Assembly: GCF_038024855.1 (NCBI RefSeq) | Contig: NZ_CP139089.1 | Location: 1,116,001-1,180,000 of the forward strand | Reading direction: 5' to 3' | DNA: 64,000 bases | From: Methylocella tundrae | Lineage (GTDB): Bacteria > Pseudomonadota > Alphaproteobacteria > Rhizobiales > Beijerinckiaceae | Part shown: positions 16,605-42,138 of the stretch, piece by piece | Layout of the letters: every line of letters begins with the position of its first letter | How positions within the stretch are numbered: position 1 is the stretch's first letter | The notes under the pieces: generated by a model | What the model was told of the DNA's origin: nothing | Seen by the model: only the letters and a program-made list of their open reading frames with translations | The model's database searches: none | Position numbers and translations under genes: made by a program

Positions 16605-16971
16605 CGCCAGGCGCGCGCCGGGTCCCGCGCGCGCCCTCGACTCGGCCCCGGCGCCGGCGCAGGTCCCGGCGAGGCCGCCGAGAGCGCTTTGGAGCCAAAA
16701 GATAGGCAACCTGCTTGCGGTTGAAGCGCAGGCATTTCCCTCGATTTCTCGGCCAGCCCGGTTTCGATCGATCTGCCGGCCTTGTGAGAACGCGCGAGTC
16801 CGCGATTTCCTTCATCCTCGCCTTTATCGGCTTTCTCCCATAGGCTAGTGTCGCGCGGTTCGATACGGATCGCGGCTCAAAGCGCTGGCGCCCTCGGGCG
16901 TGTGGCCCGCGCTTTGCTCGAAGCTGACGCCAGCAGCGCCCAAGAGGCCGAAGATTAGGGAGCCCGCCCGG
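16605..16971. other. Intergenic region upstream of the glycogen operon
   Basis: This 367-base gap should contain the promoter of glgP and any terminator of the upstream gene. It is very GC-rich at its left end, and I find no convincing promoter hexamers or hairpin followed by T. No gene is supported in it. Confidence 0.35.
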
Positions 16972-19479
16972 ATGGATCTTGAAACTCATGCCGCGTCGGC
17001 CGCGGACGCCGCAGCGCCCGCGGTCGAGACGCAAGCCATTGGCGAGGATGTCGCAGCGATTCGCGATTTGATTCTCGCCAAGCTCAAATATTCGGTCGGC
17101 AAGAGCGTCACCGCGGCAAGTCCGCACGACTGGTTCGTCGCGACGGCGCTGAGCGTGCGCGACAAGGTCGTCGAAAGCTGGCTATCCTCCATCGAAAGCT
17201 CCAAGCGGACAGGCCGCAAGCGCGTCTATTATCTCAGCCTGGAATTCCTGATCGGGCGGCTCCTCATCGATGCCTTGACCAATATGGAAATGATCGACGA
17301 AACGCGCGCCGCGCTCGCCGAATTTGGCGTCGACCTTGAGACCCTGCGCGAGGTCGAAGACGACGCGGCGCTCGGCAATGGCGGCCTTGGCCGGCTTGCG
17401 GCCTGCTTCATGGAAAGCATGGCGACCCTCTCGATCGCCGCCTACGGCTATGGCATCCGGTACGATCATGGGCTGTTCCGCCAGCGCATCAAGAACGGCC
17501 GCCAACTCGAATATCCCGAGGATTGGCTGTCGTTCGGCAATCCATGGGAGTTTCAGCGCCCCGAGATCGTCTGCCCCATCGGTTTCGGCGGTCACATTGA
17601 CACGGAAACGCGACCCGACGGCGAACTGAGACAAGTGTGGCATCCGGGCGAGACGGTCGAGGCGCTGGCCTATGACACGCCAATCCCCGGCTGGCGCGGC
17701 GCCCACATCAACACGCTTCGGCTCTGGTCCGCGCGCGCGGTCGATCCCTTGCGTCTCGACCAATTCAACAGCGGCGACCATATTGGCGCGCTGATGGATC
17801 GGGTGCGCGCCGAATCGATCTCGAAGGTGCTCTATCCAGGCGACACAACCCCCGCCGGCCAGGAGCTGCGGCTGCGGCAGGAGTTCTTCTTTGCTTCCGC
17901 CTCGTTGCAGGATCTCGTCCGGCGCCACATCAGCCTGTATGGGGACGTCCGCACGCTCGCCGACAAGGCGGCGATCCAACTCAATGACACACATCCCGCG
18001 ATCGCAGTCGCGGAACTTATGCATATCCTTGTCGATTTGCACGACATTCCGTGGGACGAGGCCTGGGCGATTACACAAGCGACATTCAGCTACACCAATC
18101 ACACGCTGCTCCCCGAGGCGCTCGAGACCTGGCCTGTGCCACTGATGGAGCGGTTGCTGCCGCGCCATATGCAGATCATTTATCTGATCAACGCGCTGCA
18201 TCTCGCCAAGGTGAGCGGGGAGCCGGATGCAACAGGCCACCGCCTTGCGGCGCTATCCTTGATCGATGAATCGCACGGGCGGCGGGTCCGCATGGGCCAT
18301 CTCGCCTTCCTTGGCTCGCACAAGGTCAACGGCGTCTCGCAGCTTCACTCCGATTTGATGAAAACGACGGTGTTCCACGATCTCGAATCGATAGCGCCGG
18401 GAAAGATCACCAACAAGACCAACGGCATCACCTTTCGCCGGTGGCTGAAAGAAGCAAACCCTGGCCTCACCTCGCTTTTGATGGAAGTTGTCGGCGACAA
18501 TCTGCTCGACAACGCGATGGTGCTTGAGAAAGTCGCCGCGCTTGCCGACGATTCATCGTTCCAGGAGCGCTACGCCGCGATCCGCCGCGCCAACAAGATG
18601 ACGCTGGCGCGGCTGGTGCAGCAACGCATCGGCGTGAAGCTCAATCCCGACGCGCTGTTCGATGTGCATATCAAGCGCATTCACGAGTACAAGCGCCAGG
18701 TGCTGAATATTCTGGAGGCCGTCACGATCTATGATGAAATTCGCGCGCAGCCCTTCCGGGACTGGATACCGCGCGTAAAAATTTTCGCCGGCAAAGCGGC
18801 GGCGAGCTACACAACGGCGAAGCTCATCATCCAGCTCGCAAATGATGTCGGCAAGGTCATCAATTCGGATCCTGCGCTGCGCGGGCTTTTGAAAGTCGTG
18901 TTCCTGCCGAACTACAATGTCAGCCTCGCGGAAAGGATTATTCCGGCCGCCGATCTTTCAGAGCAGATCTCGACAGCCGGCATGGAGGCGTCCGGCACCG
19001 GAAATATGAAATTCGCGCTGAACGGGGCGCTGACCATCGGAACGCTCGACGGCGCCAATGTCGAAATTATGGAGCATGTCGGCTCAGCCAATATTTTTAT
19101 ATTCGGATTGACGGCCGACGAGGTCGAAGCCAAACGGAGCCAGGGCATCAGTGGGCAGGACGCGATCGCACGATCGCCGAAACTTTCTGAAGCGCTGGAA
19201 TCGATCGCGTCAGGGGTTTTTTCGCCGGACGAGCCGCATCGCTACCGTGGCCTCGTCGACGCCCTAACCTATCATGACTTCTTTCTGGTGACGGCCGATT
19301 TCGACGCCTATTACAACGCGCAGCGCGCGGTGTTCAGACGCTGGCGCGACAAACCCGCATGGTGGCGTTCCGCCATCCTCAACACAGCGCACATGGGATG
19401 GTTCTCTTCGGACAGGACGATCGCTGAATACGCCGAAGAAATATGGAACGTCCCAGTGACTCCGCCAGGACGCAAGTGA
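16972..19479 (+). CDS. glgP: Glycogen phosphorylase
   Basis: An 835-residue GT35 phosphorylase that releases glucose-1-phosphate from glycogen non-reducing ends. Typical blocks include [15 protein letters not shown] (about 83-97), [16 protein letters not shown], and the PLP-lysine region [17 protein letters not shown] with Lys near residue 680. Length equals the family norm (about 815-840). The ATG at 16972 has GGGAG about 9 bases upstream; the frame is open farther left but without conserved sequence. First gene of the operon with glgB, glgC, glgA, pgm and glgX-malQ. The first 40 residues are Ala-rich and variable. Confidence 0.97.
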
Positions 19480-19481
19480 GA

Positions 19482-21698
19482 ATGGGGCATGACGCGAACA
19501 TAATCGCGACGCGGCCTTGCTGGCAGATCAGCGACGCCGATGTGGAAGCCATCCTAAGAGCGCGCCACAATGATCCGTTCGCGATTCTTGGAGCCCATAA
19601 GGTTGCGCAAGGGGTCGTTATCCGGGCCTTTGCGCCGCATGCCGAAAAGCTTGCCGCCTTGATCGACGATGGCGAAGCGGTCGCGCTCGAGGCGCGCGGC
19701 GGCGGCTTTTTCGAAGGGCTCGCTCAGGGCCGGACCGCGCCGCCGCGCTATCGCCTCGAAGCGTCGAACGCCGGCGGATCCTGGAGTTTCATTGATCCTT
19801 ACGCCCTGCCGCCCGTGCTTGGCGAGATGGATGATTATCTCCTCGTCGAAGGCACGCATCGCCTGCTCTACCAGCGTCTCGGCGCTCATCTCATGCGCCT
19901 TGAAGGCGTTGATGGCGTTCATTTCGCGGTCTGGGCGCCGCACGCCGCCCGCGTCTCCGTCGTCGGCGACTTCAACGGCTGGGACGGGCGGCTGCACCAG
20001 ATGCGAAAGCGCGTCGACTCAGGGCTCTGGGAGATCTTCGCTCCCGATGTCATCGAGGGAACCGCCTACAAGTATGAGATCATCTCGCGCGATGGGCGGC
20101 TGTTGCCGCTCAAGGCGGACCCTGTTGGATTTGCCGGAGAGCTCCGTCCCTCGACGGCTTCGCTCGTCGCGCGCACGGACAAGTTCACCTGGTCGGACGC
20201 CGATTATCTCGACCATCGCCGAAACGGCGAGGCCTGGCGCCAGCCGATGACGATTCTCGAGGCGCATCTTGGCTCGTGGCGGCGCGGCGAAGGCGGCCGC
20301 TTCCTGACCTATGACGAACTCGCCGAGCAATTGATCCCCTACGCCGTCGATCTCGGCTTCACTCACCTCGAGCTGATGCCCATATCCGAACATCCGCTTG
20401 ACGCCTCCTGGGGTTATCAGCCGATCGGTCTTTTCGCCCCGACGCGCCGATTTGGCGATCCGGCGGGATTTGCGCGTTTTGTCGACAAGGCGCATGCCGC
20501 CGGGCTCGCCATTATCCTCGACTGGGTTCCGGCCCATTTCCCAACCGACGTGCACGGGCTCGCCCTCTTCGACGGGCAGCCTCTCTATGAGCACGCCGAC
20601 CCGCGCCGTGGATTTCATCCAGACTGGAACACGGCAATCTATGATTTCGGCCGCCGCGAAGTGGCCGGTTTCCTGGCGGCGAACGCCCTTTTCTGGCTCG
20701 ACCGCTATCATATCGACGGGCTGCGCGTCGACGCCGTCGCCTCGATGCTCTACCTCGATTATTCGCGCAACCCCGGCGAATGGCTGCCAAATCCCGACGG
20801 CAGCAACGACAATCGCGACGCGGTCGGCTTTTTGAAAAGGTTCAACGAACTCGTTTATGAAACCTATCCGGGCGTCGTCACGTTGGCGGAGGAATCCACG
20901 GCCTGGGCCGGCGTCTCGGCTCCGACCAGTTCGGGCGGGCTCGGCTTCGGCTTCAAGTGGAACATGGGCTTCATGCACGATACGCTGGAATATATGGAGA
21001 TCGATCCGATCCATCGCCGCTGGCATCATGACAAGATGACCTTTGGCCTCATCTACGCCTTTTCCGAGAATTTCGTACTGCCGCTCAGCCATGATGAAGT
21101 CACGCATGGCAAGGGATCGCTGCTCAGTAAAATGTCCGGCGACGACTGGCAGATGTTCGCCAATCTTCGCGCCTATTACGGCTACATGTGGGGACATCCC
21201 GGCAAGAAACTCCTGTTCATGGGGCAGGAATTCGCCCAACGGCGCGAGTGGAGCGAAGAGGGCGAACTCGACTGGCGTCTTCTCGACGCGCCGGCGCACA
21301 AGGGCGTGCAGACGCTGATCCGCGACCTCAACCGCCTGCACAGGAGCTTGCGCGCACTGCATCTGCGCGATAGCGAGCCTGGCTGTTTCGCATGGATCAT
21401 CGGCGATGACCGCGATCAGTCCGTCTTCGCCTTCGCGCGGTTTGGCGAGGCCGGCGACCCGCCGGTCGTCGTCATCAATAATTTCACGCCGGAGCCGCGC
21501 CATAATTATACAGTCGGCCTGCCGCGCGCCGGGATCTGGCGCGAATTCCTCAACACGGACGCCACCGTCTACGGGGGCTCCGGCGTCGGCAATTTCGGCT
21601 CTATCACGGCGCGCGACGTCCCGGCGCACGGTCAGCCTGCCTCGGCGCAAGTCACGCTGCCGCCACTGGCGACGCTCTATTTCGTCCCGGAGGCCTGA
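19482..21698 (+). CDS. glgB: 1,4-alpha-glucan branching enzyme
   Basis: A 738-residue GH13 branching enzyme that cuts alpha-1,4 chains and rejoins them as alpha-1,6 branches. It has an N-terminal carbohydrate-binding domain ([11 protein letters not shown]), a CBM48 region ([25 protein letters not shown]) and the GH13 regions [18 protein letters not shown] (nucleophile Asp), LAEESTAW (acid/base Glu) and LPLSHDEV. The ATG at 19482, two bases after the glgP stop, with AGGA 11 bases upstream, seems likeliest; an ATG at 19443 inside glgP would add 13 residues. Sixty bases separate it from glgC. Confidence 0.96.
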
Positions 21699-21758: not shown

Positions 21759-23012
21759 ATGAGATTGAGCGCGCCAATTGGACGCCAAGCCATGGCTTTT
21801 GTCCTGGCGGGAGGCCGCGGCAGCCGCCTACTCGAATTGACGGACCGGCGCGCCAAACCAGCGGTCTATTTCGGCGGCAAGATGCGGATCATCGACTTCG
21901 CTTTGTCGAATGCGCTGAACTCCGGCATCCGCCGCATCGGCGTCGCCACGCAATACAAGGCGCACAGCCTCATCGGACATCTGACGCGCGGCTGGAACTT
22001 TTTTCGGCCCGGCAGCAATGAAAGCTTCGACATCATGCCGGCCAGCCAGCGCGTGTCCGAGGATCAATGGTATGCCGGCACCGCCGACGCAGTGTTTCAG
22101 AATATCGACATCATCCGCGACCGCGCCCCGAAATATATGGTCATTCTCGCCGGCGACCACATCTACAAGATGGACTATGAGGTCATGCTGCAGCAGCACG
22201 CCGACTCGGGCGCCGACGTCACCATCGGATGCCTCGAAGTGCCGCGGCTCGAGGCGAGCGCCTTTGGCGTCATGCATGTCGACGACAAGGACCGGGTCAT
22301 CGCGTTCATCGAAAAACCCGCCGCTCCGCCGCCGATGCCAGGCGATCCCGAGAGGGCGCTCGCCTCGATGGGCATTTATGTTTTTGAAACGAACTTCCTG
22401 TTCGAACAGCTTGAACGAGACGCTTATGATCCGCATTCAAGCCGCGATTTCGGCAAGGACATCATTCCCTATCTCGTCAAACACGGCAAAGCGGTCGCGC
22501 ATCACTTTTCGGATTCCTGCGTGCGCTCTTCGGACGACGAGCCCTCCTACTGGCGCGACGTCGGCACGGTCGACGCCTACTGGGAAGGCAATATCGACCT
22601 CACCGACATAGTTCCCGATCTCGACCTTTTCGACAAGGACTGGCCGATCTGGACCGATAGCGCGGTCACGCCGCCGGCAAAATTCGTGCATGATGAAGAC
22701 ACGCGCCGCGGCATGGCGGTTTCATCGGTCGTGTCAGGCGGATGCATCATTTCAGGCGCCAAGGTCAAGCGATCGCTTCTCTCGACCGGCGTCAGGGTCA
22801 ATTCCTATTGCGACGTTGAGAATGCGGTCATCCTGCCTTATGTCGAGGTCGGACGGTCAACCCGCCTTCGCAATGTCGTCATCGACCGCGGCGTAAAGAT
22901 CCCGGAGGGTCTCGTCGTCGGCGAAGATCCGGTCGCAGACGGCAAGCGATTTCGCCGCACGGAGAAAGGGATCTGCCTGATTACTCAAACCATGATCGAC
23001 CGCTTAGCATGA
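21759..23012 (+). CDS. glgC: Glucose-1-phosphate adenylyltransferase
   Basis: A 417-residue ADP-glucose pyrophosphorylase; it makes ADP-glucose from ATP and glucose-1-phosphate, the committed step of glycogen synthesis. The nucleotide-binding loop [14 protein letters not shown] is at about 15-28; [11 protein letters not shown], the IEKPAAP sugar-phosphate site and the C-terminal left-handed beta-helix ([20 protein letters not shown]) follow. Full length for the family (about 420). GGAGGG precedes the ATG at good spacing. Usually allosterically controlled by glycolytic intermediates. Confidence 0.97.
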
Positions 23013-23025
23013 GCAACGGCCCGGC

Positions 23026-24504
23026 ATGAGCGACGTCACGGTTCTGGCCGTCGTTTCCGAGATTTTCCCGCTGGTCAAGACCGGCGGCCTCGCCGATGTC
23101 GCCGGCGCGCTGCCCTCGGCACTGGTCCCCGAGGGCGTTGAGGTCGTGACCCTGACGCCCGGCTATCCCGCGGTGATGAAGGCAATCATTCACGCTGAAA
23201 CCGTGGTCGAGGCGGAGCAGATTTTTGGCGGCGAGGCGCGGGTTTTGCGCGCCGACGCCGCCGGGCTCGATCTTTTCGTGCTCGACGCGCCGCATCTTTT
23301 CAATCGTCCGGGCGGTCCCTATGCCGGACCCGACGGGCAGGACTGGCCGGATAATCCCTTTCGCTTCGCGGCCCTCAGCCGCGCCGGGGCGCAGCTCGCC
23401 CTCGGCTTCGCGCCCGGCTTTGCCCCCGATGTCGTTCATACGCACGACTGGCAGGCGGGCCTGACCGCGGCCTATCTCCACTATGACGGCCGCCCTCGCC
23501 CGGGAACCGTGGCGACGATCCACAATCTTGCTTTTCAGGGCCAATATCCCGCCGAGCTGCTCGGCGCGCTCGGTCTGCCGCATGAAGCCTTCGCGATCGA
23601 GGGGGTGGAATATTACGGCATGATCGGCTTTCTGAAAGCCGCTCTCGCCCTCTCCGACCGCATTACCACTGTGTCGCCGACTTACGCCGCCGAGATACGC
23701 ACGCCAGATTTCGGCATGGGCCTCGATGGGCTTTTACGCGCCCGGGGCATGGCGGTGACCGGCATCCTCAATGGCGTCGACGAAGACATTTGGGACCCCT
23801 CCATCGATCCGCTGATTGCGGAGCCTTTCGACGTGCGCACGCTGGCGCGCCGCCCGGCCAACAAGGCGCTACTTCAGCGCAAGTTCGGCCTCGACGTCGA
23901 TCCGGGCGCGCTGCTGTTTGGCGTCGTGAGCCGCCTCTCCTGGCAAAAGGGGCAAGACCTCCTGCTGGCCAATCTCGGCGTTCTCGAGCGCATCGGCGCT
24001 CAGCTCGTCGTCCTCGGTTCGGGAGATCCCGATCTCGAACAGCAGCTTCTGGCGGCGGCGGCCAAACAGCCGCGCCGCATTGGCGCATTGATCGGCTATG
24101 ACGAGGCGACCGCTCATCAGATTCAGGCCGGCGCGGACGCCATTTTGATCCCATCGCGCTTCGAGCCTTGCGGATTGACGCAGCTCTGCGCGCTGCGCTA
24201 CGGGGCGCTTCCCATTGTCGCCCGCGTCGGGGGTCTTGCCGACACCATCGTCGACGCCAATGAGATGGCTCTCGCCGCCGGGCTTGGAACCGGCCTGCAA
24301 TTTTCTCCGGTAACGGCCGAAATGCTGGGCGCCACTCTGGAGCGCGCCTCGCGGCTCTGGGGCGAGCCCGAGATCTGGGACGAATTGATCGAAAACGGCA
24401 TGATGACCGATGTGTCGTGGCGGCGCCCCGCGGCCGCTTACGCGAAACTCTATCGCGACCTCATCCGCCATCGGCGCGCTGGCCTCAAATTCTCAACCTC
24501 GTGA
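23026..24504 (+). CDS. glgA: Glycogen synthase (ADP-glucose)
   Basis: A 492-residue GT5 glycogen synthase that adds glucose from ADP-glucose to the growing chain. The N-terminal [19 protein letters not shown] contains the KTGGL loop; [10 protein letters not shown] and the C-terminal [14 protein letters not shown] and FEPCGLTQL motifs are intact. Length is normal (about 480). Thirteen bases after the glgC stop; the ATG at 23026 is in the conserved position. Confidence 0.97.
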
Positions 24505-26145
<1,641 letters not shown>

Positions 26146-26162: not shown

Positions 26163-29100
26163 ATGATGCATGGCGTCGGCCCTGGCCGGGCGGAGCCGCT
26201 CGGCGTTTTTGCAGAAGAAGGCGGGATCAATGTCGCTGTCGCCGCCGGCGACGCCGAGGCCATCTTTCTGTCGCTCTTCGATGAAGCCGACCGCGAGACC
26301 GCGCGCATAAAGCTTCCCGGGCGCACGGGCGACGTGTTTCACGCACATATATCGGGCGTCGGCGTCGGCGCGCGCTATGGCCTGCGCGCGCAAGGATCAT
26401 TCGATCCCGTGCAGGGTCGGCGCTTCAACGCCGAAAAACTTCTCGTCGATCCTTACGCGACCCGGCTCGACCGCCCGTTCAAGCTGCACGCTTCACTGTT
26501 CGACGCGCGCATTCACGGCGCGGCGGAAGATCACGCCGACAGCGGGCCCTTTGTCCCCAAGGCGATCGTCGAAGCGCCGGTCCCGCTGCCTCAGCCACGT
26601 CGCCCCGCCGTCGCCTGGCGCGATCTCATCATCTATGAAATGCATGTGCGGGGGTTCACTGAGGCCCATCCGGATATTCCTGAGGCCCTTCGCGGCACTT
26701 TCGCAGGACTTGCTCATCCAGCCGCGATCGCTCACCTGACCCGGCTTGGAGTGACAGCCGTCGAACTGCTGCCAATCGCGGCATGGATCGACGAACGCCA
26801 TCTGCCTGCGCTCGGCCTCTCCAATTACTGGGGCTATAATCCGATCGCCTTTCTCGCGCCGGACCCAAGGCTTGCTCCCGGCAACTGGCCCGAGGTGCGC
26901 GCCGCCGTCGCGGCGCTGCAGGCGGCAGGGATCGCCGTCATCCTCGACGTCGTGCTAAACCATACGGGCGAGAGCGACGATTTAGGCCCCACCGTTTGCT
27001 TGCGCGGGCTCGACAACAGCGCCTATCGCCTCGAGCCGGACAATCTGGCGATTTATGAGAATCAGGCGGGCTGCGGCAATGTTCTCGCGCTGGAGCGGCC
27101 ACAAACTCTCCGCCTCGCGCTGGAGGCGCTGCGCACCGCCGCCACCCGCGCCGGCGTCGATGGCTTCCGCTATGATCTCGCCCCCGTGCTGGCGCGCGCG
27201 CCCGATGGCTTCGACCCCGCCCATCCCTTCCTCGCGGCCGTCGCTCAGGACCCGACGCTGCGCGATCTGATCCATATCGCCGAGCCCTGGGATCTTGGCC
27301 TCGGCGGCTATCAGTTGGGGGCGTTCCCCGCCGGCTGGGGCGAGTGGAACGATAAATCGCGCGACGCCTTCCGGCGCTTCTGGCGTGGCGATGAGGGTCT
27401 TAAGGGAACATTGGCGACGCGTCTTGCGGGCTCGGCCGATATTTTCGCGCCGCGCCATCGCGCGTTGTCGCGCTCGATCAATTTCGTCACGGCGCATGAC
27501 GGCTTCACTCTCGCCGATCTCGTCGCCCACACGCACAAGCGCAATGAAGCCAATGGCGAGCATAACCGCGACGGAAGCGACGATAATCTGTCGTGGAACT
27601 GCGGCGCCGAAGGCGAGAGCATTGATCCCGCCATCATCGCGCGCCGAAAAGGCGACGCGCGCGCTCTGCTTGCGACCTTGATCGCATCGCGCGGCACGCC
27701 GATGCTGTGCATGGGCGATGAACTCGGCCGCACGCAGAAAGGCAACAACAACGCCTATGCGCAAGACAACAGCCTCACCTGGGTGGATTGGGCCGGCGCC
27801 GACGCCGAACTCATCGGCTTCGTGAGCCGTCTCATCAGGCTTCGCCGCACGGTTGGCGCACTGAGCGCCGAAGCGCCCCTGACCGGAGCGCCGTCCGATC
27901 CCTCAGGCATTCCAGACGTCGAATGGCTCAACCTCAATGGGTCCCCCTTACGGCCGCGCGATTGGCATGAACCGGGCTCTGAAGCGCTCATCGCCGTCTT
28001 TTATGACGGCGGGGATAAGGAACAGGAGGCAAGCCGCGCCGCCGTTTTGCTGAACCGCGGATTTGATGCGCCGCAGGCGCAGCTTCCCGCCCCGCGTGAC
28101 GGCCATGTCTGGATGCTCGAAATTGATTCAGCCGATCCCGGCGCGGAGGGAAAGCCGGTCGCGGACGGCAGGCTGTCTCTCGCGCCGCGCTCGGCGGCGA
28201 TCCTGATCGAGACGCGCGCGCGGGCGGCGGGGCGCGGCGGAATCGACGATCACGTGCTTGACGCGCTGGCGGAGGCGGCCGGCGTCGTCAGCCATTGGTG
28301 GGATGTCGAGGGCCGCCTCCATAAAGTCAAGGCGGGCGCCAAGCAGGCGTTGCTCAAAAGCCTTGATCTTTCGGCGGTCTCGACGGGCGAGGCCCGCGCG
28401 CGCCTCGCGGAACTCTCGCAGGAGCGCACATTCCGGCCCCTGCCCGTCGCCACGACGATTTCGGTTGGCGGGGATCGAACGCTTCGCCTCGGCGGCGCGC
28501 TCGCCGGGAGCCAGCGGCCCTTCGCCCTGACCATCGCCTGCGAGGATGGATCCATTCATGAGGTCGAGATCACGCCGCAGCTCGGCCGCCGCGGCGAGGC
28601 CTTGGCGCCAGACGGGCGTCGGGCGCTGATCTGCGACATCCCGCTTCCCGAACTGCCGCTGGGGCGCCATGAAATCATGGCCGACGCCGCGCCGGAGAGT
28701 TCGGGCCATCTCGCCGTCGTCCCTGGCGTCGCCTTCCTCCCTACGAGCCTGCGCGAAGGCCGCGTCTTCGGTCTCGCCGCCCAACTCTATGGCCTACGGC
28801 GCGAGGGGCCGAATGAGCGCGGCGATCAGGGCGTCGGCGATTTCACCTGCCTGCGCCTGCTTGCCGAAGAAGCCGCGCGCGCGGGCGCCGTGACGGTCGG
28901 CGTCAATCCGCTGCATGCGCTTTATCCGCATGATCCTGAACGCGCGAGCCCCTATCATCCCTCCGACCGGCGCTTTCTCGATCCACTTGCGATCGACGCC
29001 TTCGACCCGCCTGCGCAACTCCTCACCGACTCGGTCCGCGCCGCGCTTTCGAGATTGACGCCCGAAGCCACGCGGCTTTCCGGGTTGCGGCTGGTCGATT

Positions 29101-30398
29101 ACAGCGCCGTCTCCGCGTTGAAAAATCGCCTTTTCGACGTCATTCACGCGGCTTTCCGCGCGCGGCGCCTCGCAGCCCCCGACGACGCCTTGGTCATCGC
29201 GTATGAGCGCTTTGTCGCCGGCGGCGGAGAGAGCCTGCGGCGCTTCGCGATCTTCACCGCCATTGAGCGCAGAATCGGCGGAACGCTCGGCCAATTCGGG
29301 CCGGAACTTTCCGCGCCCCACGCGCCGGGAATCGCGAGTTTCGCCGCCGAGCATGAAGACGAGATCGAGCGCGCGAACTTCCTGCAATTTCTCGCGGACC
29401 GGCAGTTCGCCGCGGCCGCGCAGGCCGGCTTTGAGGCCGGCCTTTCATTGGGCTTTTACCGGGACCTCGCGGTTGGCTGCGCGCCGGATGGCGCGGAGGC
29501 TTTTTCAGAAGCGAGCCGCCTGATGCAGGGCGTATCGATCGGCGCCCCGCCCGATCCGCTGGGGCCAAAGGGTCAAATCTGGGGGCTGCCGCCATTCGAC
29601 CCGCGCGCTCTCGCCCGAGATGGCTATGCGAGCTTCGGGCGCCTCATCGCCGCGAACATGGCTTATGCCGGCATTTTACGCATTGATCATGTTCTCGGGC
29701 TCAAACGTCTGTTTCTCGTGCCGGACGGCGCGGAAGCCGCCGACGGCGCCTACCTCGCCTGCCCCTTTGACGCCTTGATGGGTCAGGTGATGCTGGAAAG
29801 CGTACGCAACAACACCGCGGTGGTCGGCGAAGACCTCGGCACAGTCCCCGAGGGGATGCGCGAAGAGCTCGCCGCGAGGAACATTCTCTCCTATCGCGTC
29901 ATGCGTTTCGAGCGGGAGGGCGCTGATTTTGTGCGGCCGGAAGATTATCCGGCGCTCGCGGCGGCCTGCGTCGCAACGCATGACCTGCCGCCGCTCGCCG
30001 GCTGGTGGCAAGGCGCCGATCTTGCCGAAGCCGCGACCCTTGGCCATTTGGCTGACGAGGGGCAGGCTTTTGCCGCCCGAACAGAAGAAAAGGCGGAGTT
30101 GATCGAGGCCGTGGCTGGCCCTGAATTTTCCGCCCGCGAAGTCGACCTCGATGCGCCCTTGACCTCTGCGACCGCCGCGGCGGTGCATGAGTTCATTGCG
30201 CGGTCCAACGCTGCGCTCGTCCTTGTGCAAACTGACGATCTCGCCATGGAGACGATACCGACCAACCTGCCCGGCACCGACCGTGAGCGGCCGAATTGGC
30301 GGCGCAAGATTTTTTCGCCCGTTGAAGGGCTCTTTGACCTTCCCGCGGCGCGCGCGATCATCGAGGCCGTGAGGCGCCAAAGAACGCTTTCCGATTGA
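26163..30398 (+). CDS. Fused glycogen debranching enzyme and 4-alpha-glucanotransferase (GlgX-MalQ)
   Basis: A 1411-residue, uninterrupted fusion. Residues about 1-690 are GlgX: CBM48 N-terminus, then GH13 regions DVVLNHT (about 261), GFRYDLAPVL (334, nucleophile), HIAEPWD (372, acid/base) and TAHDG (442). Residues about 695-1411 are GH77 MalQ: GLAAQLYGLRREG, then RIDHVLGL (about 1173, nucleophile), VVGEDLGTVP (1221, acid/base) and THDLPPLAGWW (1273), ending PGTDRERPNWRRKI. All catalytic residues for both halves look present, so it should both cleave alpha-1,6 branches and disproportionate the freed maltodextrins. The usual GlgX is about 690 residues and MalQ about 700, so the size equals their sum. 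Last gene of the glycogen operon. Confidence 0.95.
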   Translation: MMHGVGPGRAEPLGVFAEEGGINVAVAAGDAEAIFLSLFDEADRETARIKLPGRTGDVFHAHISGVGVGARYGLRAQGSFDPVQGRRFNAEKLLVDPYATRLDRPFKLHASLFDARIHGAAEDHADSGPFVPKAIVEAPVPLPQPRRPAVAWRDLIIYEMHVRGFTEAHPDIPEALRGTFAGLAHPAAIAHLTRLGVTAVELLPIAAWIDERHLPALGLSNYWGYNPIAFLAPDPRLAPGNWPEVRAAVAALQAAGIAVILDVVLNHTGESDDLGPTVCLRGLDNSAYRLEPDNLAIYENQAGCGNVLALERPQTLRLALEALRTAATRAGVDGFRYDLAPVLARAPDGFDPAHPFLAAVAQDPTLRDLIHIAEPWDLGLGGYQLGAFPAGWGEWNDKSRDAFRRFWRGDEGLKGTLATRLAGSADIFAPRHRALSRSINFVTAHDGFTLADLVAHTHKRNEANGEHNRDGSDDNLSWNCGAEGESIDPAIIARRKGDARALLATLIASRGTPMLCMGDELGRTQKGNNNAYAQDNSLTWVDWAGADAELIGFVSRLIRLRRTVGALSAEAPLTGAPSDPSGIPDVEWLNLNGSPLRPRDWHEPGSEALIAVFYDGGDKEQEASRAAVLLNRGFDAPQAQLPAPRDGHVWMLEIDSADPGAEGKPVADGRLSLAPRSAAILIETRARAAGRGGIDDHVLDALAEAAGVVSHWWDVEGRLHKVKAGAKQALLKSLDLSAVSTGEARARLAELSQERTFRPLPVATTISVGGDRTLRLGGALAGSQRPFALTIACEDGSIHEVEITPQLGRRGEALAPDGRRALICDIPLPELPLGRHEIMADAAPESSGHLAVVPGVAFLPTSLREGRVFGLAAQLYGLRREGPNERGDQGVGDFTCLRLLAEEAARAGAVTVGVNPLHALYPHDPERASPYHPSDRRFLDPLAIDAFDPPAQLLTDSVRAALSRLTPEATRLSGLRLVDYSAVSALKNRLFDVIHAAFRARRLAAPDDALVIAYERFVAGGGESLRRFAIFTAIERRIGGTLGQFGPELSAPHAPGIASFAAEHEDEIERANFLQFLADRQFAAAAQAGFEAGLSLGFYRDLAVGCAPDGAEAFSEASRLMQGVSIGAPPDPLGPKGQIWGLPPFDPRALARDGYASFGRLIAANMAYAGILRIDHVLGLKRLFLVPDGAEAADGAYLACPFDALMGQVMLESVRNNTAVVGEDLGTVPEGMREELAARNILSYRVMRFEREGADFVRPEDYPALAAACVATHDLPPLAGWWQGADLAEAATLGHLADEGQAFAARTEEKAELIEAVAGPEFSAREVDLDAPLTSATAAAVHEFIARSNAALVLVQTDDLAMETIPTNLPGTDRERPNWRRKIFSPVEGLFDLPAARAIIEAVRRQRTLSD

Positions 30399-30413
30399 AG
30401 AGAATCGGAAAGC
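30386..30413 (+). terminator. Hairpin at the end of the glycogen operon
   Basis: A perfect 11-bp stem (GCTTTCCGATT at 30386-30396, complement at 30403-30413) with a 6-base loop contains the stop codon of the fusion gene. No T-run follows directly, so it may act as an mRNA 3'-end stabiliser or a factor-dependent boundary rather than a classic terminator. Confidence 0.45.
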
Positions 30414-30441
30414 AATCGGCTCAAGTTGGTTATCGTTTGGT

Positions 30442-30732
30442 TTACTTTGCGGTCTTCTTGATAACGTCCATCAGCGTTTCGGACGGATGATTTTTGCAAT
30501 AGTCGGTCGCGACTTTCGTGTTGCGCTCGAGATAGCGCATGTCGACAGTCGAGCGATCTTGCGTCGCGCTAAAGTAACCAGCCATCCATGCCGTGATGAA
30601 AGGCATGCGCTCTTCAGGCGATTCAAGAAGTTGCTTGCAGGTGATCAAGGACATGTCGACCTTGACTTGAGCATGAGCGATCGGGGCAAATCCCGTTCCA
30701 AGGATGATGGCGGCGAGAATTCTTTTCTTCAT
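30442..30732 (-). CDS. HdeA/HdeB-like periplasmic protein (second copy)
   Basis: A 96-residue protein with a signal peptide ending IAHA|QVKV. The mature part fits the HdeA/HdeB acid-stress chaperone family: DMSLITCKQLL, AWMAGYF and TDYCKNHPSETLM, with the two conserved cysteines that make one disulfide. HdeA-type chaperones bind unfolded periplasmic proteins at low pH. An AGGAG lies 7 bases before the ATG at 30732. It follows a paralogue on the same strand by 32 bases, and its 3' end faces the glycogen operon. Confidence 0.82.
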   Translation of the reverse strand: MKKRILAAIILGTGFAPIAHAQVKVDMSLITCKQLLESPEERMPFITAWMAGYFSATQDRSTVDMRYLERNTKVATDYCKNHPSETLMDVIKKTAK

Positions 30733-30764: not shown

Positions 30765-31064
30765 TCATTTCGGCGCAAGTGCGCGCTGCAGACCGCTCAT
30801 CACCGTCTCTTTGGGATAGGAGCCGCACCATTTCGAGACGCTCTCGACATTTTTGGCGAAGCCGTTCAGATCTATGGTGGTCGAGCCGATCTTCTGATTG
30901 AACCAGCCGCTCAGCCACGCTGACGTGAGCACGGCGTCGGCCGGGGGCATGGCGAGGAAATCGGCGCAGGTGACCGCCCGCATATCAATCATGACCTGCG
31001 CCTGCGCGGCGCCGGCGCAAAGCGCGCCGGCAAGAGCCAGCGTTGTAATGGCAAGTTTTTTCAT
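30765..31064 (-). CDS. HdeA/HdeB-like periplasmic protein (first copy)
   Basis: A 99-residue paralogue of the following gene. The signal peptide ends AAQA|QVMI; the mature part has DMRAVTCADFL, AWLSGWF and SKWCGSYPKETVM, keeping both cysteines. GGGGAG sits about 9 bases upstream of the ATG at 31064. The two copies share the pattern but differ at most positions, so the duplication is old or both are kept for different clients. First gene of the pair. Confidence 0.82.
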   Translation of the reverse strand: MKKLAITTLALAGALCAGAAQAQVMIDMRAVTCADFLAMPPADAVLTSAWLSGWFNQKIGSTTIDLNGFAKNVESVSKWCGSYPKETVMSGLQRALAPK

Positions 31065-31393: not shown

Positions 31394-34300
31394 TCAGACT
31401 CCGCGGGGCCGGCGCAGATCGAGCGTCAGCGGAAAATCGGCCGTGCGCTCTTCCGGCGGCACGAAGATCGGCCCCGGCGTGTGGCCGAAAGCCTGGAACC
31501 GGGCGAGCCGACGCGCTTCGGCTTCATAGGAATTCACCGGGAAAGTCTCATAATTGCGCCCGCCCGGATGCGCGACATGATAGACGCAGCCGCCGATGGA
31601 GCGGCCGCTCCAGTTGTCGATCAGGTCAAACGTCAAGGGCGCATGGACGGGCACGGTCGGATGCAGACCCACCGCGGCTTGCCACGCCTTGAAACGCACC
31701 GCGGCGACCGCTTCCTCGGAAACGCCCGTCGAAGTCATCGGCAGACGGCGCCCATTGCAGGCGACGACGTGGCGGCCCTCGACGAAGCCATTGGCTTTGA
31801 GCTGCAGCCGTTCGATCGAGGAATCGACAAAGCGCACAGTGCCGCCGATCGCGCCCGTCTCGCCCATCACATGCCAGGGTTCGAGCGCCTGACGCACTTC
31901 GAGCTTGACGCCGCTATGCTCGATCGAGCCATAGAACGGAAAGCGGAACTCGCGTTGCGCCTCGAACCAGACGGGATCGAACTGATAGCCGGCCCGGCCA
32001 AGATCGGCCAGAACGCCAAGGAAATCCTGCCAGACGAAATGCGGCAGCATGAAGCGGTCATGCAGGGTCGTTCCCCATCGCACAAGACCGCCCTGCTGCG
32101 GCTCACGCCAGAACCAGGCGATGAGCGCGCGCAGCAGCAATTGCTGCGCAAGACTCATGCGCGCGTCAGGCGGCATCTCGAAGGCGCGAAACTCCACCAG
32201 CCCGAGCCGGCCGGTCGGCCCATCGGGCGAATAGAGCTTGTCGATGCAAATTTCGGCGCGATGCGTATTGCCGGTGACGTCGACAAGCAGATTGCGATAG
32301 AGCCGGTCGATCAGCCAGAGCGGGATCGATTGATCGGGCCCGGGCGTATTCGCCAGCGCGATCTCAAGTTCGTAAAGCTGATCGAGGCGCGCCTCGTCGA
32401 CGCGCGGCGCCTGGCTGGTCGGGCCGATGAAGAGACCCGAAAAGAGATAAGACAGCGAGGGATGACGCTGCCAATAAAGGACGAGGCTTTTCAAAAGGTC
32501 GGGCCGGCGCAGGAACGGCGAGTCCTGCGGGGTCGCGCCGCCGACGACGACGTGATTGCCGCCGCCCGTGCCTGTGTGGCGTCCATCCACCATGAATTTA
32601 TCAGCGCCAAGACGAACCTGCCGCGCATCCTCATAGAGGCCTTTGGTCGTCTCGACCGCCTCCCACCAGGTGGCGCTGGGCTGGATGTTGACCTCGATCA
32701 CGCCGGGATCGGGCGTCACCTTGATGACCTCGATGCGCGGATCATAGGGCGGCGGATAGCCCTCGATATGAACGGGCGTCTTGATGCCTTCGGCGGCGAC
32801 TTCGACGGCGGCGACAAGTTCGAGATAATCCTCAAGCCGCTCGACCGGCGGCATGAAGACGCAAATCACGCCGTCGCGCGCCTCGACCGACATCGCCGTT
32901 CTGACCGAGCCTTCGATGATTTCCTGCTCGATGAGCTGCTGCCGGCTGGAGGCAGGCTCGAGCGATCGCTGGAAATGCTCGACGCGCTGTTTCAGCGTCT
33001 GCGCATCCGGCAAGGAGCCGCGCTCCTCCAGCGGATCTTGCGGGTGAACATAGGGATAGGAGGACGCCGGAATATAGGGCAGCGAGCCGAGCGGCAGGCG
33101 ATAGCCGACTGGCGAATCGCCCGGCACAAGGAAGAGTTTGCCGCGCCGCAGACACCATTTTTCGCTGACCCACTTGAGCCCGCGCGAAATCTGCGCCGGC
33201 GCGTTCCACCGCTGCACCGGCAGCACAAACCCCGTCGGCTTGGTGAGGCCGCGCGAAAAGGTGCGGATCATGCGATTGCGTTCTTCCGGATCCTCGATCT
33301 TGGGGTCAAGCGGATCGACGTTGCCCGGCAGATTGCCTTCCTTGACAAGCCATGTGGCTGGATCTTCATAGGCCGGCATCACGCAATCATCGGCGACGCC
33401 GAGAAATTCGGCGATCCCATGCGTCAGCGCCTCGGCCTTCGCGCGCTGCTCGTCGGAAAAAGTAATATGGGCGGCTTCCGGCGGCTTCTCCGCTTCTGGC
33501 GCAAGCGTGCGGCCGACGGCGTCGATGAGATCGCTGTTCCGCCAGATCGGCTGCCCGTCCTTTCGCCAATAAAGCGAAAAGCCCCAGCGCGGCAGAGATT
33601 CGCCTGGATACCACTTGCCTTGGCCATAATGCAGCATTCCGCCCGGCGCGACGCGATCGCGAACGCGGCGGATCAAGGCGTCCGCGAAGCTCCTCTTCGT
33701 CGGCCCGACGGCGGCCGTGTTCCATTCGGAGGATTCGAAATCATCGATCGAAACGAAGGTCGGCTCGCCGCCCATGGTCAGCCGCACGTCCTGGCTCCTC
33801 AGATCCGCGTCGACCTGTTCGCCGAGAGCGTCGAGCTTTTCCCACGCCTCGCCGGAAAAGGGCATTGTGATCCGCGGCGCTTCCGCGACGCGCGTCACGC
33901 GCATGTCAAAAGCGAAATCGACATTGGCGCCCGCCTCCACGCCACCAGAAATGGGAGCGGCCGAGGAATAATGCGGGGTGGCGGCAACGGGGATATGACC
34001 TTCCGCGCAGAACATGCCGGAGGTCGCGTCCATGCCGATCCAGCCTGCCCCCGGCAGATAGACCTCCGCCCAGGCGTGCAGATCGGTGAAGTCGACCTGT
34101 GTTCCCTTCGGCCCCTCCAGCGGCTCGATGTCGGCGCGCAATTGAATGAGATAGCCGGAGACGAAGCGCGCGGCGAGGCCGAGATTGCGCAGGATCTGGA
34201 CCAGCGTCCAGGCCGAGTCGCGGCATGAGCCGGCGGCCAGCTCCAGCGTCTCCTCCGGGGTCTGAACGCCAGGCTCCATGCGAATAACATAACGGATCGC

Positions 34301-34762
34301 TTTCTGGAGGTTCGTGTTGAGACCGACCAGAAAGTCTACGATATGCATGGGCTCTTTCGGCAAACTCTCCATATAGGCGGAAAGATGCGGACCGAGCGGT
34401 TCAGCCTGCAGATAGGGCGTCAGATCCGATTTGAGTTCAGGCTCATAAGCGAACGGAAACTGTTCGGCATAGGGTTCGATGAAGAAGTCGAACGGGTTGA
34501 CGACCGACAGGTCGACGGTCAGATCGACCTCGACCTTGAACTCCGTCACCTTCTCAGGAAATACGAATCGCGCCTGCCAGTTATTGTGCGGGTCCTGCTG
34601 CCAATTCACGAAATGGTCAGGAGGCGACACTTTCAGGCTGTAGGACAGGATTTTGGTGCGGCAATGCGGCGCCGGACGAAGACGCACGAGCTGCGGCCCC
34701 AGACCGACGGGACGGTCGTATTTATAATGGGTGAGATGATAGATTGCGGCCGATATGGACAA
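31394..34762 (-). CDS. Transglutaminase-like protein with DUF2126 domain
   Basis: A large cytoplasmic protein, 1122 residues from the TTG at 34762. The N-terminal transglutaminase-like beta domain begins [15 protein letters not shown]; the papain-like core has Cys in [10 protein letters not shown] (about 180), His in [10 protein letters not shown] (about 230) and Asp in GMDATSGM (about 244), so the triad is intact. The remaining 750 residues are DUF2126. In other bacteria it sits with an alpha-E protein and an ATP-grasp-like protein in a putative peptide-forming system; none is here. I chose the TTG because the conserved N-terminus starts right after it; a GTG at 34834 would add 24 residues. 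Substrate unknown. Confidence 0.85.
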
Positions 34763-34970
34763 TGCTGCTGACCCGTTGCCCGGCCGGACCGTGCCCGTCC
34801 CCCGCGGAGCGCGTCGGGACTTCCAGGCGCCCACAGGGCTCGCAAAGGTATAGCAATCAAACGAGTCAAGCGAAAGGTTGGGCGATTGCCTCGGCGCCTA
34901 TGTTTTGTCCAACGGGATAACAAAGACTCGCCAAGGCGCCCGATGCGGTGCGATCGGCCAAGTTCTTTTG

Positions 34971-38189: not shown

Positions 38190-39671
38190 TCATTCCCCGA
38201 TGGTGACGACCGGCTCGCGTCCGATCAGCCGCGCAAGCTGTTTGACCCGGCTGTACAGACGCTCGCTGGCAAGGTCGGCGAGTTGCTTCGGCAGCGTCAA
38301 CACCACCTTGCTCTTGAGGCAAACGACGGGCGTGCTCGGCAAAATGTCCGGCATCGCGCCCGACACCAGATAGGCAAGGCGGGCCGCCGCGGCGACGATC
38401 CGCGCCCGATCCAGCATGCGCGCGGACACGAGCGCCCTGATCTGCGGATTGACGCCATCGTCATCGAGTCCGAGATAGCGATAGGAAATCGTCAGGGCGA
38501 GAAACGCGCGGCCAGGATGGTCGATGGCGGTCAAGGTCGTGTTCTCGACGAGATTCAAACCCTCTTCGGCGCGATAGTCCGGATGCGCGCGCCAGTTGAC
38601 GTCCGCGAGCAGGCAAGCCGCATGACGCAATCGCCTTTCGTCAGCCGTTTCTTCGAGATGCGTCGATCTCATGAAGCGGTCTGTCCAGTCGCACAGATCG
38701 TCGGCATGGCGCGGCGCGCGTGCGAACATCTGATTGGCGTCGCTCGCGGCGACGATTAGCGGATCCTGCCGGCGCTGCGCAAGATCAAGCTTTTCATAGA
38801 GCAGCCCCTCCCGCACGCCGGCGGTGGAGATCATGATTTCCTTCGGTCCTGCCTGGCGAATGATCTCCGCAAGCGCCACGGCTCCGTACGGAAGCAACGG
38901 ACGACGCTGCAAATTGACGATGTCGATCGAAATCAGCGTTTCAGTATCCACGCGCGCAACGAGGCCCGCGAAATCGGCGGCGTCCCTCGCTGGAATGACA
39001 TAGCCATGCATCACCGACAGCGGATAGTTCCGCTGGCTCATATATAGTTTCGCGAGGGCGCGCCAGGTGCCTCCCACCGCGTAGAAGGTGCGCCCGGCGA
39101 CGCGATCGATGACGCGCGATTGCGCTAATGAGTCGCGGACGATTTTAACCGCCGCGCGTGGCGATTTTTTCGAAGCGTCCATCAGGCTGAGGCCGCCAAG
39201 CGGCAGGGTTTCGCCCTTGCCCAATTGCGCGCCCTTGACGTCGATCAGTTCGAGCGAGCCGCCGCCGAGATCCCCGACCACGCCGTCCGGCTTATGGATC
39301 CCCGAAATGACTCCATGCGCTGAAAGCTCGGCCTCGCGAGCGCCCGACAGCAGGGCGATCGGCGCGCCGATCGCCAGCTTTGCCGCCTCCACGAATTCGG
39401 CGCCATTTGAGGCGTCGCGCGCCGCGGCGGTCGCCAGAACATGCAGCTCGCCGACCTGCAGAATTTCGCTGAGCACCTTGAAGCGGCGCAAAGCGGAAAG
39501 CGCCTTCTCCATGCCGGCTTTCGGCAATTTGCCCGTCGTTGCGACGCCGTCGCCGAGAGCGCAGAGGGACTTCTCGTTGAAAATCTGCCGGGGCGCGCGG
39601 CTGAGGCCTTCATAGGCGACGAGCCGCACGGAGTTCGAGCCGATGTCGACGATGGCGACGGGGCGCTTCAT
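38190..39671 (-). CDS. ppx: Exopolyphosphatase
   Basis: A 493-residue Ppx/GppA phosphatase. It begins with the ASKHA-fold phosphate 1 motif VAIVDIGSNSVRLVAYEG; GDLGGGSLEL (about 140-150) is the second phosphate loop, and an HD-like C-terminal region follows. It hydrolyses polyphosphate from the end, releasing phosphate, and may also act on pppGpp. I use the ATG at 39671 since the conserved motif begins right there; an upstream ATG at 39779 would overlap ppk by 62 bases. It follows ppk on the same strand with a 46-base gap, the usual Rhizobiales arrangement. Confidence 0.93.
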   Translation of the reverse strand: MKRPVAIVDIGSNSVRLVAYEGLSRAPRQIFNEKSLCALGDGVATTGKLPKAGMEKALSALRRFKVLSEILQVGELHVLATAAARDASNGAEFVEAAKLAIGAPIALLSGAREAELSAHGVISGIHKPDGVVGDLGGGSLELIDVKGAQLGKGETLPLGGLSLMDASKKSPRAAVKIVRDSLAQSRVIDRVAGRTFYAVGGTWRALAKLYMSQRNYPLSVMHGYVIPARDAADFAGLVARVDTETLISIDIVNLQRRPLLPYGAVALAEIIRQAGPKEIMISTAGVREGLLYEKLDLAQRRQDPLIVAASDANQMFARAPRHADDLCDWTDRFMRSTHLEETADERRLRHAACLLADVNWRAHPDYRAEEGLNLVENTTLTAIDHPGRAFLALTISYRYLGLDDDGVNPQIRALVSARMLDRARIVAAAARLAYLVSGAMPDILPSTPVVCLKSKVVLTLPKQLADLASERLYSRVKQLARLIGREPVVTIGE

Positions 39672-39717
39672 CGAGGCCTGCGCCCCGGCCTCGCCCTCAG
39701 TCGCAACGCGCAACGGC

Positions 39718-42138
39718 TCAGCGGTTGTCCAGGCGCTTGAAGAGGGTTTTGGGACTGGACGTTTTAAGAGATTTTCCACGGCCTGACAGACTCGGATTTG
39801 TCATGAAATAGGAATGGGCGTTGAATGGTTCTTCGCTCGGCGGGGCTTGTATGCGCGCGCTCGCGCCGTCAGGCAAGACGCGATAGCTCTGCTGGTTGTC
39901 AATGAGATTGGCGACCATGATCTGATCCAGCACCTGCTCATGCACGGTCGGATTCAAAATTGGCAGCAAGGCTTCGACACGCCGGTCGAGATTGCGCTGC
40001 ATGAGGTCGGCCGAGGAAATATAGACCCTCGCCTTTGGATGCGGCAGGCCGTGGCCGCCGCCGAAACAATAGACGCGCGCATGTTCGAGAAAGCGTCCGA
40101 TGATCGATTTGACGCGGATGTTTTCGGAAAGACCCTGCAAACCGGGGCGCAGGCAGCAGATGCCGCGCACGATGAGATCGATTTTTACGCCGGCCTGACT
40201 CGCCGCGTAAAAGGCGTCGATGATCTCAGGATGAACGAGGGAATTGCATTTGGCCCAGATCGCGGCGGGCTTGCCAGCTTTCGCGAAAGCGATTTCCTCG
40301 CTGATATGCTGGAGCAGCCGCGCCTTCAGGGAGATAGGCGAAACCGCCATGAGTTCAAGGCCCTCCGGCTCGGCATAACCGGTGATGTAGTTGAAGATGC
40401 GCGACACATCCCTGCCGATCGCAGGGTCGGCGGTGAAGAAGGAAATATCGGTGTAAATCTTCGCCGTCACGGGGTGGTAATTGCCGGTGCCGACATGACA
40501 ATAGGTCGTCAGCGCGCCGCCCTCGCGGCGCACCACCATCGATAATTTGGCGTGCGTCTTCAGCTCGATGAAGCCGAACACGACCTGCACGCCGGCGCGT
40601 TCGAGATCGCGCGCCCAGCGGATGTTGGCGGCCTCGTCAAAACGCGCCTTGAGTTCGACAAGGGCGGTCACCGACTTGCCGGCCTCCGCCGCGTCGATGA
40701 GGGCGCGAACGATCGGGCTATCGGAAGAGGTGCGGTAAAGGGTCTGCTTGATTGCAATGACATTCGCATCCGTCGCCGCCTGATTGAGGAACTGGACGAC
40801 GACGTCGAATGATTCATAAGGGTGGTGAACGACGAGGTCCTTCTGCTTGATGGTGACGAAGCAGTCGCCGCCATTATCGCGCAGACGTTCCGGGAAGCGC
40901 GGATTGTAAGGCTTGAACTTGAGCTCCGGCCGATCGAGGCTGACGATCTCGGACAACTCGTTCAAGGCCAACATGCCGTCGAGAACGAAAATCTCCTCGG
41001 GAGGAACATCAAGCTCCTCCGCGACAAAGCTGCTGAGCTCTTCCGGCATCTGGCTGTCGAATTCGAGCCTGATCACCGAACCGAGGCGGCGGCGCTTCAG
41101 CGCGCTTTCAAACAGGAGAACCAGATCTTCCGCCTCCTCCTCGACTTCGAGATCGCTGTCGCGAATAACCCTGAAAAGGCCGAGCCCGCGCACGCGATAG
41201 CCTGGGAAGAGATTATGCGTGAACATGCTGATGACGTTTTCGAGCGCGACGAAACGCTGGCGCTTTTCGTCCCCCTGCTCGGGCAGGCGAACGAAACGCT
41301 GGATCTTCGCCGGCAGCCGGATCAGCGCCTTCGACGTCTTTCGATCGACCGGGCCGATGAGCTCGAGGGCGATGGTGAAGCCAAAATTCGGAATGAATGG
41401 AAATGGATGCGCGGGATCGATTGCGAGCGGCGTCAAAACCGGGAAGATATGGGTCAGGAAATATTGCTCGAGCCAATCCTTGTCGGCGGCGTCAAGGTCC
41501 GGCGGATCGAGCAGAGTGATGCCGGCGCCGATCAGTTCCTGGCGGAGCTCCCGCCAGCGGCGCTGCTGCTCGACAGTCAACAGTCCGACGCGTTCGCGAA
41601 TTCTGGCGAGTTGCTGCGTCGGGGCCAGCCCATCCTCTGACGGCGTCGTCACGCCGGCGCGCATCTGTCCGCGCAGGCCGGCGACGCGAACCATGAAGAA
41701 CTCATCGAGATTCGTCGCCGAAATCGAAAGGAAGCGCACCTGTTCGAGGAGCGGATGATTGCGGTTGGAGGCTTCCTGCAAAACGCGCCTGTTGAATTCG
41801 AGCCAGGACAGCTCACGATTGATGAAGCGGTGCGGCGATTGGCGGAGATCGTCCAGGGGCGCCTCGCGGACTGCGCGGTCTGAGAGCGGCGCGGGCCCCG
41901 CCTCGTCCGCCACCGCAGCCGCGCTGGCGAAATCGGGCTCGACGGCGATTTCTTCGACGCTGGCGAGGAATTCGTCGCTCGCCGCGAGCGTCTCGGCATT
42001 CCCATTGTCCTTGACGGCGCTCTCGCCCTGAGCCGAAGCCTCATTCCCTTCGAGATTGGCTTTGGCGGCGCGCTTCGCATCGCCGATCCGTTTGACTTCC
42101 GACATCTTCGGTTCTTGCGCCTGCGAAGTCACTGCCAT
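39718..42138 (-). CDS. ppk1: Polyphosphate kinase 1
   Basis: An 806-residue PPK1 that reversibly transfers the ATP gamma-phosphate to polyphosphate. Residues 1-105 are a variable hydrophilic extension; conserved sequence starts at [19 protein letters not shown]. The phosphohistidine region [13 protein letters not shown] (His near 526) and [10 protein letters not shown] are intact, as is the C-terminal phospholipase D-like domain. The extension makes it about 100 residues longer than the E. coli enzyme. The ATG at 42138 is used; an ATG at 42105 is an alternative. Paired with ppx downstream. Confidence 0.95.

Follow-up and report, generated by a model that had tools for sequence, protein, structure and literature searches.

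A fused glgX-malQ gene in Methylocella tundrae

The stretch of DNA from the methane-oxidizing bacterium Methylocella tundrae analyzed here (the window; 64,000 nucleotides [nt] of contig NZ_CP139089.1, positions 1,116,001 to 1,180,000) carries a glgX-malQ gene that joins a glycogen-debranching enzyme to a 4-alpha-glucanotransferase in one protein of 1,411 amino acids (aa). Based on its domains, residues, and gene context, we predict that this is very probably a two-headed glycogen-breakdown enzyme with both modules catalytically complete, a conserved chain encoded at the end of a run of glycogen genes. The frame begins with ATG and is open throughout. Its parts, in window coordinates, are as follows.

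26163..30398, + strand: glgX-malQ fused gene, 1411 aa; NCBIfam model NF011082 spans residues 3-1407
26163..28211, + strand: GlgX half, residues 1-683; CBM48, GH13 isoamylase-type barrel, and C-terminal beta domain; D338, E374, D446
28212..28256, + strand: linker, residues 684-698, unconserved; model predicted local distance difference test (pLDDT) score <50 at window residues 687-692
28257..30395, + strand: MalQ half, residues 699-1411; Escherichia coli-type long GH77 with N-terminal domain; D1175, E1223, D1274

Profile matches confirmed the first-pass annotation of a single open frame joining a complete GH13 debranching enzyme to a complete GH77 enzyme. The first half scored 781.7 bits against the NCBIfam GlgX model TIGR02100 (residues 8-680; cutoff, 640.9), and the second scored 332.9 bits against the MalQ model TIGR00217 (residues 828-1391; cutoff, 205.65). 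Pfam placed CBM_48 at residues 12-99 and GH77 at 887-1383; its GH13 match, at 178-271, was weak (24.1 bits against a cutoff of 22). Scores and residues together identify the halves as GlgX (D338, E374, and D446) and MalQ (D1175, E1223, and D1274); we take these six to be the catalytic positions of the GH13 and GH77 halves. All six, visible to the first-pass annotation as well, were invariant in 50 of 50 aligned fused proteins, a set that includes the window protein and its same-species copy. The linker, which is close to the junction placed earlier at 28230-28260, varied among these proteins in both sequence and length (1 to 49 residues, most 12 to 22, in alignment columns).

The catalytic motifs of both halves also align with solved chains. 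The first half shares its fold and catalytic residues with GlgX of E. coli (2wsk) and Streptomyces venezuelae (7u39), and the second half, including the N-terminal domain, with MalQ of E. coli (4s3p) and Corynebacterium glutamicum (5b68); unlike the fused halves, all four are stand-alone proteins. A single structure model of window residues 141-1340, made with 28 sequences, had a mean pLDDT of 84.5 and a predicted template modeling (pTM) score of 0.58. Model residues ∼3 to 547 match GlgX structures, and those from 554 on match a long-type MalQ; pLDDT fell below 50 at model residues 547-552 (window residues 687-692, in the linker), 316-343 (within the GlgX half), and 778-780. The model suggests two good lobes joined by a flexible tether. 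A fixed mutual placement of the two active sites is unsupported by it at this pTM.

The fused gene is the sole GH77 gene found in the M. tundrae genome, which encodes two GlgX proteins above the cutoff: the fused half and a separate GlgX elsewhere that is 41% identical to it. The treZ and treY genes also sit elsewhere in the genome.

The protein matches NF011082 (PRK14510.1-1), named "bifunctional glycogen debranching protein GlgX/4-alpha-glucanotransferase," from end to end (residues 3-1407 of 1,411 against model positions 4-1408 of 1,410), with GlgX followed by MalQ in one chain across the whole model. Because NCBIfam already includes a full-length model under this name, the architecture is not new in kind. 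Among the papers listed from the open-access literature, as screened by titles and abstract openings, we found no study of a GlgX-MalQ fusion; subscription journals lay mostly outside this search, so such a study may have been missed.

Conservation and distribution

An independent assembly of a second M. tundrae isolate (L040) likewise has the frame unbroken, at 98% identity. GH77 was present in 10 of 14 same-genus genomes, this one counted, and the fused frame was closed in 8 of these 10 (this genome and seven of the nine others fetched); we therefore suspect neither a frameshift nor an assembly error. In another genome (G407), the sequence reads through the junction and the gene is cut by the contig end, so that 9 of the 10 keep the fusion. 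In a metagenome-assembled genome (MAG) of the same genus, USCa MAG G408 (L070 and L134, apparently one MAG), the fused gene is interrupted before the linker by a frameshift that may be genuine or an error in the MAG.

The ratio of nonsynonymous to synonymous substitutions (dN/dS) against five same-genus genes was roughly 0.13 to 0.21 in both halves, with dS near saturation. Both halves thus look to be under purifying selection, and chance is not a plausible source of the frame. dN was higher around the junction (0.35 to 0.62 in the same-genus comparison).

We surveyed the class through an even sample of 385 genomes, with at most two candidates scored per genome, so that the fusion count is a lower bound. 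At least 80 of these genomes matched the fusion model with E values of 0.001 or better, none of them above its cutoff, and at least three (G000, G326, and G246) were end-to-end single frames without stops; a match on a partial contig (G069) was left uncounted. Apparent open frames of 1,420 to 1,531 aa in other class genomes were rejected as fusions and not counted, their lengths having been read through stops. Stops lay between two genes in all nine loci fetched: eight with such frames (G363, G073, G166, G038, G106, G050, G190, and G285) and G148, in which an end-to-end match to the fusion model is broken by one TGA. In three of them (L128 in G148, L120 in G363, and L121 in G073), glgX and malQ share a frame with a single stop codon between them, an arrangement that is plausible as a prefusion state. 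Among family and order genomes fetched, three were fused (G430, G426, and G452), one had separate genes (G422), and two had MalQ-TreY frames (G423 and G283).

Among relatives, we compared the 80 closest of 514 loci in named genomes, which as best matches give no population estimate. Forty-seven of these 80 were fused; in two of the 47 (L092 and L099), the MalQ match was short and weak. The fused loci came from Methylocystis, Ancylobacter, Acetobacteraceae, and Magnetococcales, and from MAGs labeled Burkholderiales, Sandaracinaceae, and Gemmatimonadetes. The two short forms, with frames of 1,217 and 1,267 aa, are from the Gemmatimonadetes MAGs and perhaps correspond to a second NCBIfam model, NF011083 (1,186 positions). 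For four loci (L088, L089, L085, and L098), the GlgX frame appears from its length to run off the contig end, and we dropped the standalone label.

Origins and losses

We placed each half in a tree without an inferred root. The GlgX-half tree had 107 rows, or 95 after L096, L097, L082, L079, L118, L092, L099, L094, L080, L116, L088, and L089 were dropped, and no origin claim covers these 12; the MalQ-half tree had 72 rows. L085, L098, L002 (own second copy, entered via L037), and L040 (same species) were omitted beforehand. Support for the main fusion clade was 98 to 99 by the Shimodaira-Hasegawa-like approximate likelihood ratio test (SH-aLRT). In the GlgX-half tree, a branch with an SH-aLRT of 99 had on one side the 36 rows of the main clade, of which 35 are fused and one is the frameshifted L070, together with the 14 standalone rows nested in it, and in the MalQ-half tree, 36 fused rows plus L070 lay on one side of a branch with support of 99.

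The Magnetococcales fusions fell apart from the main clade in each of the two trees. A GlgX tree constrained to unite them with that clade and its 14 nested rows was rejected by the approximately unbiased (AU) test (P = 0.000114), run by a quick LG+G4 method on groups picked after tree inspection and with 12 of 107 rows dropped beforehand. We discarded a more extreme value (P = 4.6e-91, main fused rows plus Magnetococcales, with the same 12 rows dropped), which was inflated by omission of the nested standalone rows. Because the Magnetococcales stand apart in both trees and the joint clade was rejected, at least two fusion origins are likely, with one main, mostly alphaproteobacterial clade and a Magnetococcales fusion that is probably separate. 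Changes between the fused and unfused states numbered 11 with L088 and L089 counted as unfused and 9 with both set aside.

Standalone rows from Kaistia and Rhodoblastus acidophilus were placed among fused rows, which suggests secondary loss of the MalQ half in these lineages. Rows from Bosea AAP35, Humitalea, and G070 were less well supported, lay closer to the base, and could represent splits that came earlier. GH77 was not found in the genome records of five of the nine unfused main-clade relatives (four Kaistia and Prosthecomicrobium pneumaticum [Kaistiaceae]); the other four (two R. acidophilus, Humitalea, and Bosea AAP35) have it elsewhere, in frames of 681 to 749 aa. The first five (L081, L084, L087, L091, and L093) retain the glgP-glgB-glgC-glgA-glgX order of the fused lineage. 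In Rhodopila globiformis, the fused gene coexists with another GH77, in a 705-aa frame.

The glycogen gene run

The fused gene follows five other glycogen genes on one strand, in the order glgP-glgB-glgC-glgA-pgm-glgX/malQ, with gaps of -37, 60, 13, 12, and 17 nt as measured from mechanically called starts.

16900..19479, + strand: glgP, glycogen phosphorylase; GTG start, mechanically called
19443..21698, + strand: glgB, branching enzyme; overlaps the glgP frame by 37 nt
21759..23012, + strand: glgC, glucose-1-phosphate adenylyltransferase
23026..24504, + strand: glgA, glycogen synthase
24517..26145, + strand: pgm, phosphoglucomutase; 17 nt upstream of glgX-malQ
30385..30414, no strand assigned: 12-pair hairpin across the glgX-malQ stop codon; a simple scan listed it as terminator-like for the - strand

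The scan that found the hairpin returned 20 terminator-like sites against 14.5 ± 4.1 in shuffled sequences, a weak signal. The first-pass annotation had the fused gene terminating the glycogen operon. Its place as the last gene of the run stands, with the next gene on the opposite strand; cotranscription of the run is presumed. In a table of 49 fused loci (nine proteins mapped), the upstream neighbor was glgA, or glgA then pgm, in 37, and the remaining 12 include all five Magnetococcales loci.

Downstream, at 30442-30732 (- strand), lies a small HdeA/HdeB-family protein (Pfam PF06411, 65.3 bits), followed by a second small frame at ∼30768-31064 (- strand) that looks similar by eye. A 1,146-aa frame at 31394-34834 (- strand) combines a transglutaminase-like domain with a DUF2126 putative amidoligase. 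Farther on, the adjacent, overlapping frames of an exopolyphosphatase (38190-39779, - strand) and a polyphosphate kinase (39718-42138, - strand) form a second storage-polymer locus near the glycogen genes.

Predicted function and alternatives

Based on the families present, glycogen phosphorylase from the same run would shorten the outer chains until stubs remain, the GlgX half would cut the alpha-1,6 bond and free a stub of three to four glucose units, and the MalQ half would disproportionate the freed malto-oligosaccharides to glucose and longer chains that are again open to phosphorylase. The fused enzyme would thus carry out two consecutive steps. As described in PMC11046441, phosphorylase halts at stubs with a degree of polymerization of 4, which GlgX prefers and cuts directly, and MalQ extends short glucans for phosphorylase. 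The tether most likely works through 1:1 coexpression and local concentration rather than through a tunnel or fixed path between the sites.

Several observations weigh against this prediction. The protein scored 2383.5 bits against NF011082, below the curated cutoff of 2511, so the equivalog threshold was missed, and the halves fell under the narrower cutoffs of PRK03705 and PRK11052. The dN/dS values are rough, dS being near saturation. Retention of the GlgX half without a detected GH77 in five of nine unfused relatives implies that some of them can do without the second activity. The NF011082 cutoff itself appears very narrow, since five other fused proteins (1,062 to 1,925 bits) and all 385 class genomes also miss it.

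In a tighter coupling, proposed in the first-pass annotation together with avoided loss of maltodextrins, the stub freed by GlgX would be handed on to the MalQ active site, or MalQ would act on the stub before its release. In favor of such a hand-off, the fusion is old and maintained (main-clade SH-aLRT, 98 to 99; 9 of 10 same-genus genomes with GH77), and Magnetococcales probably acquired a fusion of their own (the AU test above, with its post hoc group and 12 of 107 rows out). We nevertheless consider it unlikely, and the avoided loss unsupported: the linker varies in sequence and length and has low pLDDT, the joined model reached a pTM of only 0.58 despite its mean pLDDT, and five relatives keep GlgX with no GH77 found. 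Similarly doubtful is a coupled debranching machine in which a tethered MalQ would reuse the stub before it diffuses away, a bacterial analogue of the eukaryotic glycogen debranching enzyme (GDE) that would have arisen at least twice (in the main, mostly alphaproteobacterial clade and in Magnetococcales) from neighboring glgX and malQ.

It is very improbable that either half has lost its catalytic activity and acts only as a glucan-binding or regulatory module. The GlgX half is divergent, as its 41% identity to the second GlgX and its 24.1-bit Pfam GH13 match attest, and in the versions from the two Gemmatimonadetes MAGs, the match to the MalQ half covers only ∼300 to 330 residues; set against this, the catalytic residues are kept in 50 of 50 proteins, each half passes its single-enzyme cutoff (TIGR02100 and TIGR00217), and both appear to be under purifying selection. 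Finally, a sequencing or assembly artifact that erased a stop between two neighboring genes is in effect ruled out by the closed frame in the independent M. tundrae assembly and seven further same-genus genomes, even though many relatives have separate, adjacent glgX and malQ, which in some of them (G148, G363, and G073) share a frame and are kept apart by one stop codon, and a frameshift splits the gene in G408.

Relation to known enzymes

CAZy groups GH13 and GH77 in a single clan, GH-H, so the two halves are distant kin rather than members of the "unrelated families" of the first-pass annotation. Its parallel with the eukaryotic GDE (AGL) is also weak and nominal only. That enzyme likewise combines glucanotransferase and alpha-1,6-cleaving activities in one chain, but both the order of steps and the domain families differ. 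It transfers three glucose units before the single remaining glucose is hydrolyzed (PMC4236520), and a GH13-like transferase domain precedes a GH15-like glucosidase domain (PMC4837477). The M. tundrae protein instead has a GlgX-type domain and then GH77, and GlgX takes off the whole short stub at once.

Other fusions put MalQ first, unlike glgX-malQ: the PRK14507 (NF011077) type joins MalQ to the trehalose enzyme TreY, and a Neisseria protein joins MalQ to GlgB (PMC11046441). The same source describes Sulfolobus TreX as having both debranching and 4-alpha-glucanotransferase activity in one GlgX-type protein, a single enzyme unlike the GlgX-MalQ fusion. Myxococcus MIsA is an isoamylase with reported 4-alpha-glucan transfer that is described as a typical GH13 isoamylase (PMC11544908).

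Judged from its sequence, the GlgX-MalQ fusion is real, conserved, and ordinary in kind, with a predicted bifunctional activity. Because most of the genus keeps the fusion, relatives have the genes split, and some Kaistiaceae apparently dropped one half, it offers a natural experiment on the effect of tethering two glycogen enzymes.

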